Source: a bacterium
GTDB taxonomy: Bacteria > Electryoneota > JAOADG01
Assembly (NCBI GenBank): GCA_026417415.1
Contig: JAOADG010000008.1
Span: forward strand, 829,612-893,611
Direction of reading: 5' to 3'
Length of the DNA stretch: 64,000 nucleotides
The position numbers and the translations under genes were made by a program. Every line of letters begins with the position of its first letter. The first letter of the stretch is position 1. The notes beneath the pieces are model-generated. The model saw only the letters and a program-made list of their open reading frames with translations, had not been told where the DNA came from and ran no database searches. This document shows positions 10,998 through 14,755 of this stretch, in pieces.

Positions 10998-11870
10998 TTA
11001 TCTTTCCGGATGCCGTGAATCTTCACCCCAACGTAATTTTTCACGTAATACTTGATAAAAGTATCTGCCTGTAAAAGTTATTAACTTTACACTAAACGGT
11101 GCTTTTTCCACTACCATCATATCTCCATATTGAATGGTATCCACATAAAATCCGTCTGTCATCACTTGTGCTTCATTTCCTGGAATTGGTTCAATCGTTA
11201 ATTTACGATCACCTTTTATCACCATAGGACGATGAGCAAGCGTATGCGGACAAATAGGAATAACAATTATCGCATCTAAAGTTGGCTCTAAAATCGGTCC
11301 ACCAGCAGATAATGAATAACCTGTTGAACCCGTTGGAGTAGAAATGATAATTCCATCAGAGGTATAGGTATTAAGATATTCATTATCAATTGAAGTTCTT
11401 AATCGAATAGTTCTGCTTCGTTCCCCTCTATCAAAAACAAAGTCATTCAATGCTAACAAGGGTTTCGCATTTCCACCACTTTTGATTCCTTGCAACAACA
11501 TTCTCTCTTCAATTTCAAATTGACCAGATAAAATCGCATCGGTCCAACGGTACAATTCAGGAATTGAAAGTTCTGCTAAATACCCAAGGCCACCTAAGTT
11601 TACACCCAAAATAGGTGTACTAGCTGTACCAATTTCACGAACACAACTTAATAATGTTCCATCTCCTCCAAAGGATAGGACTAAATCTAAAGTAGCTGCA
11701 ATCTTAGAAATCGGTTCGTAAACAAATTCATCCGTTAATCCAAGTGCTTTTAATCCTTCATCCAAAATTAGTTCACAGTTTTTATTCGTAATCCAGCGTA
11801 AGTAATTCGGGACTTCGGTTAAAACTTTGGGTTTTCGCAAATTTCCATAAATGCCAACTTTTGGTGTCAT
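10998..11870 (-). CDS. nadK: NAD kinase
   Basis: Phosphorylates NAD to NADP. At 290 aa it is standard. The catalytic GGDGTLL motif is at 68-74, NLGGLGYLAE at 91-100, and the nucleotide-binding TPTGSTGYS at 178-186, all diagnostic of the NadK family. It lies 6 bases after xseB and abuts ftsY. Confidence 0.97.
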   Translation of the reverse strand: MTPKVGIYGNLRKPKVLTEVPNYLRWITNKNCELILDEGLKALGLTDEFVYEPISKIAATLDLVLSFGGDGTLLSCVREIGTASTPILGVNLGGLGYLAELSIPELYRWTDAILSGQFEIEERMLLQGIKSGGNAKPLLALNDFVFDRGERSRTIRLRTSIDNEYLNTYTSDGIIISTPTGSTGYSLSAGGPILEPTLDAIIVIPICPHTLAHRPMVIKGDRKLTIEPIPGNEAQVMTDGFYVDTIQYGDMMVVEKAPFSVKLITFTGRYFYQVLREKLRWGEDSRHPER

Positions 11871-11876
11871 TGAGTG

Positions 11877-12110
11877 TTACTCTTCTTTTGGAACAATTTC
11901 CTCTAAATGCTTTAGTTTAAGTTCTGCTTGTTCCAGTTTTTTTTGGCATAGTTTGTAAAGAAATTGACCCTCTTCAAATGCATCAATAGCGGATTCAATA
12001 GAAATTTCACTATTTTCTAAATAATTGGCAATTCGCTCTAATCTTTTATACGCTTCTTCAAATGTTAATTGTTCTAATTCAGAAAATTTACTTTTTTCAG
12101 ATTTAGTCAT
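11877..12110 (-). CDS. xseB: Exodeoxyribonuclease VII small subunit
   Basis: Small subunit of the single-strand-specific exonuclease VII, which binds the C-terminal helices of XseA. The 77-aa helical protein has the family core LTFEEAYKRLERI and a Glu/Lys-rich second helix. I place the start at the ATG at 12110 because GGAG stands 6 bases before it; a TTG four codons upstream is possible. The start lies 8 bases inside the end of xseA, the usual coupled arrangement. Confidence 0.93.
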   Translation of the reverse strand: MTKSEKSKFSELEQLTFEEAYKRLERIANYLENSEISIESAIDAFEEGQFLYKLCQKKLEQAELKLKHLEEIVPKEE

Positions 12111-13356
12111 TCTTTTCTCCAAACAATTTCTCTTTACATATCACACGAAATATACCATCACTTAAAGAAACCGAATATTCTTCCTGCACTTGAACCATAT
12201 TGACTGAAGTGATCATTTTGCCTTGTTTATCATGAACAACTGCAAAACCTCTTGCAAGTAATCTCAAGGGATTTAATGCTTCGATTCTAAATACAAGATG
12301 ATTAACGCTAGATTTCAAATTTTCCATTATTCTTTTCATTGCCATTCTACTGCGATGATCCAATTCATCAATCCTTTGAAACAATAAGTTCAATCTATCC
12401 AAAGGACGCGTAAAACTACCTCTTTTCGCTAAATTGTACAACTTTTCTCTTTCATTTTTTATCTTTTGTTGGACAGATGTTTTTATGGATAAGAAGTAAT
12501 TTTCTACATCATCGTGAATTGCTACAGCATCGGGTACAACCAATTGTGCAGCAGCAGTTGGGGTAGGTGCTCTAACATCTGCTGCAAAATCAGACAAGGA
12601 ATAGTCAATCTCATGCCCAACAGCAGAGACAATAGGAATTTTTGAATTAGCTATTGCTCGAACAACAACTTCTTCATTAAATGCCCATAAATCTTCTAAT
12701 GAACCACCACCGCGTCCAACAATAATTACATCTACTTTCTGAGTATCTGGAGCGTTTTCACCACAGTACTGATTAATTTTAAAAATTGCATTTGCAATCT
12801 CTTCTGCAGCCCCTTCTCCTTGAACTTTCACACCTGCAAGAACCACTTCAATCATTTTCCATTGTTGTCGTAGTATTCTCATCATATCTTCAATCGCAGC
12901 ACCAGTAGGACTTGTGACTATCGCAATTCTTTTTGGAAATTCCGGTAAAGAACGTTTTCGTGTTGCATCGAACAATCCTTCTTCACTAAGTCGCTTCTTT
13001 AAAATTTCAAATTGCTGTTGAAGAAAGCCAATACCTGCAGTAATTGCTTGTTCTATGATAAATTGGTATTCACCGCGAGGTTCATAAACCTGAATACTCC
13101 CAAATACAATTACTTTTTGTCCGTTTTCAAAACGAAAGGGTAAAAAGCGTGTAACTGAACGCCACACTACACATTTCATTTGTGCATTAGCATCTTTCAA
13201 TGTGCAGTAGACATGCCCAGAGGTTGCGTAGGTAACATTTGATAGTTCCCCTTCAACCCAACAATGTGGGATACTAGTTTCAAGCACGCTCTTAATTTGA
13301 ACTGCTAATTCTGTAACAGTAAGTGGTTTAAATTCAGTTAGAATGGGTTTATCCAA
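12103..13356 (-). CDS. xseA: Exodeoxyribonuclease VII large subunit
   Basis: Catalytic subunit of exonuclease VII, which degrades single-stranded DNA in mismatch and recombination repair. At 417 aa it is near the usual length. It starts with an OB-fold domain (WVEGELSN near residue 33), followed by the catalytic core with RIAIVTSPTGAA, DVIIVGRGGGS and VGHEIDYSL, then a coiled-coil C-terminus. Upstream lies a strong hairpin that ends the neighbouring transcript, so this gene probably opens the long operon running down to mrdA. Confidence 0.96.
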   Translation of the reverse strand: MDKPILTEFKPLTVTELAVQIKSVLETSIPHCWVEGELSNVTYATSGHVYCTLKDANAQMKCVVWRSVTRFLPFRFENGQKVIVFGSIQVYEPRGEYQFIIEQAITAGIGFLQQQFEILKKRLSEEGLFDATRKRSLPEFPKRIAIVTSPTGAAIEDMMRILRQQWKMIEVVLAGVKVQGEGAAEEIANAIFKINQYCGENAPDTQKVDVIIVGRGGGSLEDLWAFNEEVVVRAIANSKIPIVSAVGHEIDYSLSDFAADVRAPTPTAAAQLVVPDAVAIHDDVENYFLSIKTSVQQKIKNEREKLYNLAKRGSFTRPLDRLNLLFQRIDELDHRSRMAMKRIMENLKSSVNHLVFRIEALNPLRLLARGFAVVHDKQGKMITSVNMVQVQEEYSVSLSDGIFRVICKEKLFGEKND

Positions 13357-13379: not shown

Positions 13380-13413
13380 AACACTTCCCTTCTACTGAAA
13401 GAAGGGAAGTGTT
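13380..13413 (-). terminator. Hairpin terminator after the HU / small ribosomal protein genes
   Basis: A 14-bp perfect stem (13380-13393 with 13400-13413) with a 6-base loop lies 20 bases beyond the stop of the 31-aa gene. On the minus strand the stem is followed by a T-rich but interrupted tail (GTTTGC). It separates the HU transcript from xseA. The tail is weak for a textbook intrinsic terminator, but stem length and position support the role. Confidence 0.72.
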
Positions 13414-13432: not shown

Positions 13433-13528
13433 TTAACGCAACTTTTTCTTATGACGATTTTTGCGTAATCGTTTTTTACGTTTGTGAGTTGCTATTTTAT
13501 GTCGTTTTCTTTTTCGCCCACAAGGCAA
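13433..13528 (-). CDS. AURKAIP1/COX24-domain small ribosomal protein (31 aa)
   Basis: A 31-codon gene opening MPCGRKRKRHKIATHK, with 16 Lys or Arg residues. It matches the short bacterial AURKAIP1/COX24-domain proteins, relatives of mitochondrial mS38 and of mycobacterial small-subunit protein bS22. By family it should bind 16S rRNA near the decoding site. The start is TTG with a perfect AGGAGG 6 bases upstream, which makes translation convincing. It follows the HU gene by 15 bases and is closed by a strong hairpin, so it forms the end of the HU transcript. Cys3 replaces the Ser that is usual in relatives I recall. Very likely a real gene, overlooked by length filters. Confidence 0.88.
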   Translation of the reverse strand: MPCGRKRKRHKIATHKRKKRLRKNRHKKKLR

Positions 13529-13543
13529 GGTTAACCTCCTAAA

Positions 13544-13828
13544 TTATTTAGTATTTTTAGATAATGATTTTTTCCAATCTAACGATATACGAAAAGCTGG
13601 AACCTTTTTTTCAGGTACATGAATCGTTTCGCCAGTACGTGGGTTTTTTCCAATTCGTGCTTTCTTTTCCCGAAGTGTAAAAGTACCTAGGCCTCTCAAT
13701 TCTACTTCATTCCCATTTGCGATTGCTTCACGAATTTCTGCAATAAAACTATCAATTACTGTAGCCACTTCAATTCTAGTAATTCCAGTTCGTCTAGCAA
13801 TGTTATCCACTAGTTCTGCTTTCCTCAT
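13544..13828 (-). CDS. HU/IHF family DNA-binding protein
   Basis: Small histone-like DNA-bending protein, 94 aa. The helical dimerisation part holds KAELVDNIARRTG, and the beta arm contains the signature GKNPRTGETIHVPEKKVPAF, with the intercalating Pro inside NPRTGE. I choose ATG at 13828 since AAGGAG lies 5 bases upstream; a GTG two codons earlier is less well spaced. HU and IHF-alpha/beta cannot be told apart safely by eye. It lies 15 bases after sppA. Confidence 0.94.
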   Translation of the reverse strand: MRKAELVDNIARRTGITRIEVATVIDSFIAEIREAIANGNEVELRGLGTFTLREKKARIGKNPRTGETIHVPEKKVPAFRISLDWKKSLSKNTK

Positions 13829-13843
13829 TGACACTCCTTCAAA

Positions 13844-14755
13844 TTATTGAATTATCCAACGATACTCAAAAACCGGTGATGTTTCAAAAAGGTGATTTTC
13901 TAAAAGGTTTTGTAGTAAGTTTGTGTTGTTACTCTCATCATCGCCCAAAAGAAGTTCTTTAATTAAACTTGTTTTCTTTTTCTTTTCAAACAATTTAGGT
14001 TCACCTACTATTCCACCCATTTTCGCAGCAATGCGAACAGCATCTTGAAATGTACCTAAAACATCCACTAAACCAACACGATAAGCTTGTTGACCAGTAT
14101 ATATTCTTCCGTCTGCTAATTTTAGAACAGAATCTATAGGTAATTCCCTTTGTTCCGCAACCGCAGAGGTAAATTGTTCGTAAGTATCATCTAAACTTGC
14201 CTGGAGGTATGCCCTTTCATCTGGTGTTAAATTTCTAAATGGATTTCCCACATCTTTGAGTTTTCCCGACTTTATCACTTCTACTTTTACCCCAACTTTG
14301 TCTGCAAGTTTATCATAGATTGGGAAAGTTAGGATTACCCCAATGGATCCAGTTATTGTTCCAGGGTTAGCTACGATCGTATCTGCTGCAACTGCAATAT
14401 AATATCCACCACTTGCAGCTACAGATGACATAGAAGCAACCACGGGTTTACCTGACTTTTTCAAACGCAATAAAGCAGAGTAAATTTCTTGAGAGGGGGC
14501 TACAGCACCACCTGGTGAATTGATACGGACCACGACCGATTTGATATTTTTATCTTTTCGTAGTTTTTCAATCCACTCTATAACTGTCTTACTATCTCTA
14601 ATTGGGCCTTCAATTTCAACTACACCTACTTGATGTGTTTTGGCAACAATTGAGTCTTCAGAATTCGATTTGCTTTTTAATACTGAAATTGCAATCACTA
14701 TAAAAATGAATACAAACAGTACAATCATTCCTACAATAAGATCTCGTGATTTCAT
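13844..14755 (-). CDS. sppA: Signal peptide peptidase SppA (short form)
   Basis: Membrane-anchored serine protease that degrades cleaved signal peptides. The 303-aa protein is the single-domain form, with an N-terminal membrane segment at about residues 7-26. The catalytic Ser is in AASGGYY (Ser115) and the general-base Lys in KSGKLKD (Lys167 most likely). GSIGV (about 137-141) follows as usual. A 64-base gap upstream may contain a promoter, but I could not define one. Confidence 0.95.
   Translation of the reverse strand: MKSRDLIVGMIVLFVFIFIVIAISVLKSKSNSEDSIVAKTHQVGVVEIEGPIRDSKTVIEWIEKLRKDKNIKSVVVRINSPGGAVAPSQEIYSALLRLKKSGKPVVASMSSVAASGGYYIAVAADTIVANPGTITGSIGVILTFPIYDKLADKVGVKVEVIKSGKLKDVGNPFRNLTPDERAYLQASLDDTYEQFTSAVAEQRELPIDSVLKLADGRIYTGQQAYRVGLVDVLGTFQDAVRIAAKMGGIVGEPKLFEKKKKTSLIKELLLGDDESNNTNLLQNLLENHLFETSPVFEYRWIIQ

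Follow-up and report, generated by a model that had tools for sequence, protein, structure and literature searches.

A predicted 31-residue bS22 gene with a TTG start beside an HU gene in a bacterium of the phylum Electryoneota

The ribosomal protein bS22 is an already known kind of protein, covered by papers on Actinobacteria, Flavobacterium and Borrelia; the E. coli 'S22' (RpsV/Sra) is a different protein that has the name alone in common with it. In solved ribosomes bS22 fills a pocket of h27, h44 and h45 and contacts the 50S subunit (PMC10618245, PMC10085706, PMC5876184). In Borrelia this pocket also includes h2 and the 50S contact is made at H68, and the gene, which is small and unannotated, begins with GUG and not with AUG (PMC10618245); in C. 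acnes bS22 touches the 50S subunit at H67 (PMC10085706). The mycobacterial and Cutibacterium bS22 proteins and mitochondrial mS38 (AURKAIP1/COX24, PF08213) occupy the same ribosomal pocket (PMC10085706, PMC5876184). A further comparison is with E. coli rpsT, which encodes bS20, an abundant 30S protein that touches h44, from a UUG start that is typical only of several gammaproteobacterial families, but bS20 is unrelated to bS22 and its gene forms a single-gene operon (PMC10931766).

We analysed a window, a stretch of 64,000 nucleotides of bacterial DNA, in which a preliminary description had placed a 31-residue ribosomal protein gene with a TTG start behind a perfect AGGAGG. The features of this locus, from upstream to downstream, are as follows.

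13844-14755, minus strand: SppA-like S49 peptidase gene, upstream of HU (PF01343, E 8.6e-56)
13544-13828, minus strand: HU/IHF-family gene, upstream of bS22 (PF00216, E 5.8e-30)
13535-13540, minus strand: Shine-Dalgarno sequence AGGAGG, 6 nt before the TTG of bS22
13526-13528, minus strand: TTG start codon of bS22
13433-13528, minus strand: predicted bS22 gene, 31 residues, TTG start, stop codon included
13380-13413, minus strand: hairpin after bS22, perfect 14-bp stem and 6-nt loop (-31.6 kcal/mol, z -5.8 against shuffles)
12103-13356, minus strand: xseA, exonuclease VII large subunit, TTG start, next downstream of bS22 (PF02601, E 2.1e-89)
11877-12122, minus strand: xseB-like ORF, a name we presume from gene order and general knowledge
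10998-11870, minus strand: NAD kinase-like ORF, again a presumed name

Identity and conservation of the bS22 gene

The coordinates, strand, length, start and AGGAGG of the preliminary description proved exact. The ORF translates to MPCGRKRKRHKIATHKRKKRLRKNRHKKKLR, and a phmmer search of solved structures (up to E 10) matched this peptide to three distinct chains with E values of 3.6e-9, 4.7e-9 and 5.8e-8: 7jil chain 5 (five entries, named S22 or L38), 9i5v chain 10 (by name an AURKAIP1/COX24 domain protein) and 8fmw chain V (bS22). Identities to the three chains were 24, 25 and 23, compared with maxima of 15, 16 and 14 among 5000 composition-preserving shuffles per chain, and the similarity is therefore not merely one of common basic composition. 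We take 7jil chain 5 to be the bS22 of Flavobacterium johnsoniae and 8fmw chain V to be that of Borrelia burgdorferi (bb0822). The former is of the same length class and identical to the window peptide at 24 of 30 residues, but has Ser3 in place of Cys3; the latter is identical at 23 of 28 residues and shares Cys3, whereas its gene starts with GUG and that of the window with UUG. The Flavobacterium loci examined start with ATG, in a scan that favours ATG, in contrast to the TTG and AGGAGG of the window. No Shine-Dalgarno match precedes bS22 in 61 of the 80 named loci listed, which are mostly Bacteroidota.

The assignment of the start codon is based on two observations. The stretch from the upstream stop to the TTG contains no in-frame ATG, and the TTG aligns with M1 of the solved bS22 chains, so we regard it as the real start. 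The longest match to the anti-Shine-Dalgarno complement ahead of the gene is AGGAGGT, and the 16S rRNA of the window genome ends in ...GGATCACCTCCTTTCT, with an intact anti-Shine-Dalgarno sequence that pairs with AGGAGG. AlphaFold, run on the single sequence, predicted a single helix (residues 4-30, pLDDT 92), which is a weak test because basic peptides often fold in this way. Judged by these sequence comparisons, the ORF encodes ribosomal protein bS22.

The preliminary description had also made the protein a relative of mitochondrial mS38; the bS22 part of this claim stands on the solved chains, and kinship to mS38/COX24 is indirect and supported only through relatives. The search it proposed, of the 31 residues against COX24 and bS22 profiles, came back empty: the window peptide matched neither COX24_C (PF08213) over the cut-off nor NCBIfam NF047430 (ribo_bS22), no other Pfam or NCBIfam model matched it, and COX24_C searched against the whole window genome found nothing. 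With E values up to 10 allowed, 10 of the 18 members of alignment A2 have a COX24_C match, the best at 1.1e-6; one member matches NF047430 (E 0.012), and the A2 profile itself matches mS38 of 8a22 at E 0.0088 and mS38 of 6xyw at E 0.46. The mycobacterial and Cutibacterium bS22 proteins and mS38 are linked to the window protein by such intermediate sequences.

A bS22 match at E <= 0.01 was found in 36 of the 39 genomes of the window's phylum, and these 36 loci span 32 genera. Most codons show synonymous change, with third positions that vary and residues that stay, as translation of the gene predicts. The three genomes with no match are G001, G030 (80% complete) and G038 (56% complete). Loss of the gene in G001, which belongs to the window's own family, lacks support; there xseA extends to the edge of its contig, and the missing gene is probably an assembly gap.

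To follow the gene beyond the phylum, we searched 386 genomes, each at least 85% complete and in a sampling that seems to rotate through phyla, with a nine-sequence model, and 150 matched at E <= 1e-3. Subtraction of the 33 matching genomes of the phylum and of the non-matching G001 from these totals leaves 117 matches among 352 sampled genomes outside it, the weakest of which are of low quality and short, with E values reaching 4.4e-4. The 118 outside loci compared below comprise those of these 117 genomes, G041 among them, plus that of G044; they represent 84 families, and outside spread was counted by families, not phyla. The encoded proteins are 28-34 residues long, a range that includes the 31 residues of the window protein, and the preliminary remark that the gene falls below usual length cut-offs is supported. 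The same note had called Cys3 unusual, which we find not to be the case: Cys is the commonest residue at this position, in 32 of the 36 phylum loci (Ser in the other four) and 62 of the 118 outside loci.

Gene neighbourhood and the hairpin after bS22

HU adjoins bS22 in the window, as had been described, with a gap of 15 nt between the HU end (13544) and the TTG. The HU start is likely the ATG at 13828, the longest ORF beginning at a GTG at 13834, and the window genome has two further genes of the HU/IHF family. HU was counted in other loci with a profile built from the HU proteins of bS22 loci. In the phylum, 33 of the 36 loci have a same-strand HU gene upstream of bS22, 32 of them within 350 nt and one (L020) at 828 nt; the exceptions are L017, which has a short upstream stretch, L032 and L185. 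The HU-bS22 gap exceeds 120 nt in 18 of the 33, long enough for a separate promoter. Outside the phylum (L192-L308 and L031), 64 of the 118 loci have a same-strand HU ahead of bS22, and one more has HU downstream; the upstream HU is within 120 nt in 56 of the 118, in 36 of the 84 families. The same profile found HU in none of 60 control loci around bL36 or bL34, all of them from the phylum. The HU-bS22 order is thus conserved among many bacteria. We saw no report of this pairing among the open-licence papers listed, which is weak evidence of novelty, and a passage search of the Borrelia paper gave no mention of HU or of an operon (PMC10618245).

HU is the commonest neighbour of bS22; second among same-strand neighbours is a cluster, SppA-like by eye, that occurs in 21 of the 118 outside loci. 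This clustering was single-linkage on stop-to-stop ORFs; in cluster 1 HU is mingled with a fused frame, the frames of clusters 2 and 3 lie on the opposite strand, and the HU numbers given here were therefore taken from the HU profile. Among the named loci listed, HU lies within 150 nt in 49 of 80, 500-1600 nt upstream in 16 and is absent in 15, close HU being mostly from Flavobacteria and Bacteroidales and distant HU mostly from Chitinophagaceae and Cytophagales. Ten spirochaete-titled loci, one of which starts at a contig end and none of which is from Borrelia itself, had no HU beside bS22. The Neomarinimicrobiota locus L042 has MltD-like, SppA, HU, bS22, XseA, XseB and NAD kinase genes in the same order as in the window; of the other three loci from this group, L037 has no detected XseB, L039 no detected SppA, and L038 begins at bS22.

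Several smaller observations concern single neighbourhoods. In L239, L245, L247 and L268 the HU match upstream of bS22 is part of a frame longer than 200 codons, in which HU is fused to another protein or shares the open frame with one. A gene with a motif like LVLSDTH, presumably phosphodiesterase-like, stands just after bS22 in L012, L023, L285 and others; its cluster is present in 11 of the 118 outside loci, with 10 ORFs downstream of bS22. The top-ranked named match among those listed (L033, 97%), titled Melioribacter sp. nzgw155, has a bS22 with an ATG start and HU 807 nt upstream, in a locus unlike the window's.

The preliminary description had the HU-bS22 transcript end at a strong hairpin. 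The hairpin is indeed there and strong, but the end is not borne out: further genes on this strand, xseA and the presumed xseB and NAD kinase ORFs, lie beyond it, no T-run follows the hairpin on either strand, and a terminator scan gave 0. Lacking a T-run, the hairpin does not classify as an intrinsic terminator in the window, and it may be an attenuator, a processing site or an RNA end. In family f3, a stem followed by TTTTT comes after bS22 in 7 of 10 loci, about 55-100 nt after the stop codon, and the HU-bS22 unit probably ends at this stem in some relatives. These seven (L003, L004, L005, L007, L010, L016 and L018) share a near-identical terminator, GGGCCTT...AGGCCC and then TTTTT, and several f3 loci have a common GCCG...TTGCCGGA stretch ahead of it. 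An alignment of the f3 region after bS22, made to look for a conserved RNA structure, gave an empty alifold result (0.0), and the single folds share mainly the terminator. Rfam at gathering score over the whole window returned two tRNAs only, and eight related loci gave no Rfam match at E values up to 1.

The TTG start codon of bS22

In the phylum, bS22 starts with TTG in 30 of 36 loci, GTG in four and ATG in two, and all 36 have a Shine-Dalgarno match of at least 4 nt. Two other ribosomal protein genes were scored in the same phylum: bL36 starts with ATG in 29 of 30 loci (GTG in one) and bL34 with ATG in all 29 scored of 30. TTG in 30 of 36 bS22 loci against 0 of 59 for bL36 and bL34 together (58 ATG, 1 GTG) gives a Fisher p of 4e-19, a value that overstates independence as the genomes are related. 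Base composition was rejected as the cause, the TTG loci spanning a locus GC of 35 to 66%. Starts of the HU genes themselves were ATG in 19 and GTG in two of the 21 that could be scored (12 of the 33 were unscored). For xseA, eight of the 30 loci have a single candidate start, which is ATG in four, TTG in three, the window's included, and GTG in one; of the remainder, eight had more than one candidate and 14 were unscored. The window xseA TTG at 13356 has a stop codon directly before it and no ATG near. TTG is thus unusual for an abundant ribosomal protein in this phylum, not for every gene. We saw no report of a fixed TTG in bS22 among the open-licence papers listed.

Outside the phylum the picture is different. 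The 118 outside bS22 starts are ATG in 91, GTG in 15, TTG in 10, CTG in one and TTA in one, the last (L299) left out of the start-codon test as TTA is no start codon; TTG was also found in all four genomes of another small phylum. Counts from the named genomes listed were excluded from the statistics because the first search pattern begins with Met and favours ATG. With the 120-nt limit for HU adjacency, which was set before start codons were compared, non-ATG starts occur in 20 of 56 HU-adjacent loci and 6 of 61 others (p 0.0009), or by family in 15 of 36 and 5 of 47 (p 0.0016), an association that was noticed after the fact and in which families are not fully independent. Allowing for GC it has a p of 0.0055, and in the stratum of at least 55% GC it was not visible (11 of 28 vs 2 of 6, small numbers). 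Since 36 of the 56 HU-adjacent outside loci start with ATG, a weak start is not required for this arrangement.

Possible roles of the gene pair

We put the probability at about 0.63 that HU and bS22 would be carried on one transcript, on which a weak start sets bS22 output and the hairpin separates or protects the segment. The protein, a basic peptide of one helix, would occupy the pocket that h27, h44 and h45 form in the 16S rRNA, as in the solved ribosomes. Being the gene after HU and read from the same mRNA, bS22 would be made in step with the growth-linked supply of HU; as the HU mRNA is expected to be abundant, a weak UUG behind a strong Shine-Dalgarno sequence would keep bS22 below HU. 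One mRNA may let the cell tune the bS22:HU ratio. The hairpin would probably separate or protect HU-bS22 from the xseA-xseB-NAD kinase part. Ribosome binding in this organism, co-transcription, regulation and the roles of the UUG and the hairpin are inferred. Joint growth-linked expression of a nucleoid and a ribosomal protein, which had been suggested before, is made more plausible by the wide conservation of the gene order. As two HU paralogues lie elsewhere in the genome, the HU beside bS22 may not be the abundant copy. The TTG starts of xseA weaken our confidence in the transcript and weak-start reading, and strengthen that in a historical one.

On the latter account, the TTG would have been fixed once in the ancestor of the phylum and tolerated under a strong Shine-Dalgarno sequence, and the HU order would be inherited and non-functional. 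The replacements by GTG and ATG, the Shine-Dalgarno match ahead of every phylum locus and the three TTG starts among eight scorable xseA loci all fit with this. However, ATG is one base change away, yet TTG persists across 32 genera and a wide GC range, bL36 and bL34 stay ATG in the same phylum, and outside the phylum 36 of 84 families have HU next to bS22. We consider this account unlikely.

The persistence of TTG across that GC range in 30 of 36 loci, and its presence in all four genomes of the other phylum, could also reflect self-regulation, in which 30S subunits lacking bS22 are more permissive for UUG and the weak start senses bS22 shortage. bS22 touches h44/h45 (PMC10085706), and there is precedent by analogy: ribosomes free of bS21 favour the rpsU mRNA in Flavobacterium (PMC9976891), and autoregulation has been proposed for E. 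coli rpsT, whose product contacts h44 and whose start is UUG, but compelling arguments for it are lacking according to the same review (PMC10931766). Moreover, an effect of bS22 on start-codon choice is a supposition, some xseA loci start with TTG as well, and ATG in 91 of the 118 outside genes means that such a circuit cannot be general; we regard it as improbable. An even more tentative version joins the two ideas, HU-bS22 being a widely conserved pair that in this phylum carries a translational thermostat in which bS22-less 30S subunits prefer the UUG of bS22. If true, ribosome completeness would be coupled to the supply of a nucleoid protein from the same mRNA.

It is very improbable that the main job of the protein lies off the ribosome, as a basic nucleoid or RNA-binding partner of HU or as an antimicrobial peptide. 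Its linkage to HU would fit such a role, as would the finding that C. acnes bS22 inhibits E. coli cell-free translation as well as the growth of other bacteria (PMC10085706), but in solved structures close relatives were built as components of the ribosome, 36 of 39 genomes of the phylum carry the gene, and the window peptide, read by eye, has no hydrophobic signal stretch. That the ORF is an untranslated chance frame downstream of HU, as its low-complexity composition (18 of 31 residues K or R) and the lack of Pfam or NCBIfam matches to the peptide could suggest, is refuted by the solved homologues, by identities above all shuffles and by residue-by-residue conservation with synonymous change in 36 of 39 phylum genomes, which goes beyond chance for a basic sequence.

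The HU-bS22 pair and its persistent weak start make a testable case of ribosome parts that may be tied to chromosome proteins. The pairing may also be of practical use. bS22 can go unannotated, and HU, which marks the place in about half of the outside bS22 genomes, could serve as a landmark for locating missed genes; a simple rule, to look right behind HU and to allow TTG and GTG starts, would recover them. A contig titled SAR202 cluster bacterium (L053) has a Flavobacterium-like bS22 with HU adjoining, and is possibly mislabelled or contaminating.
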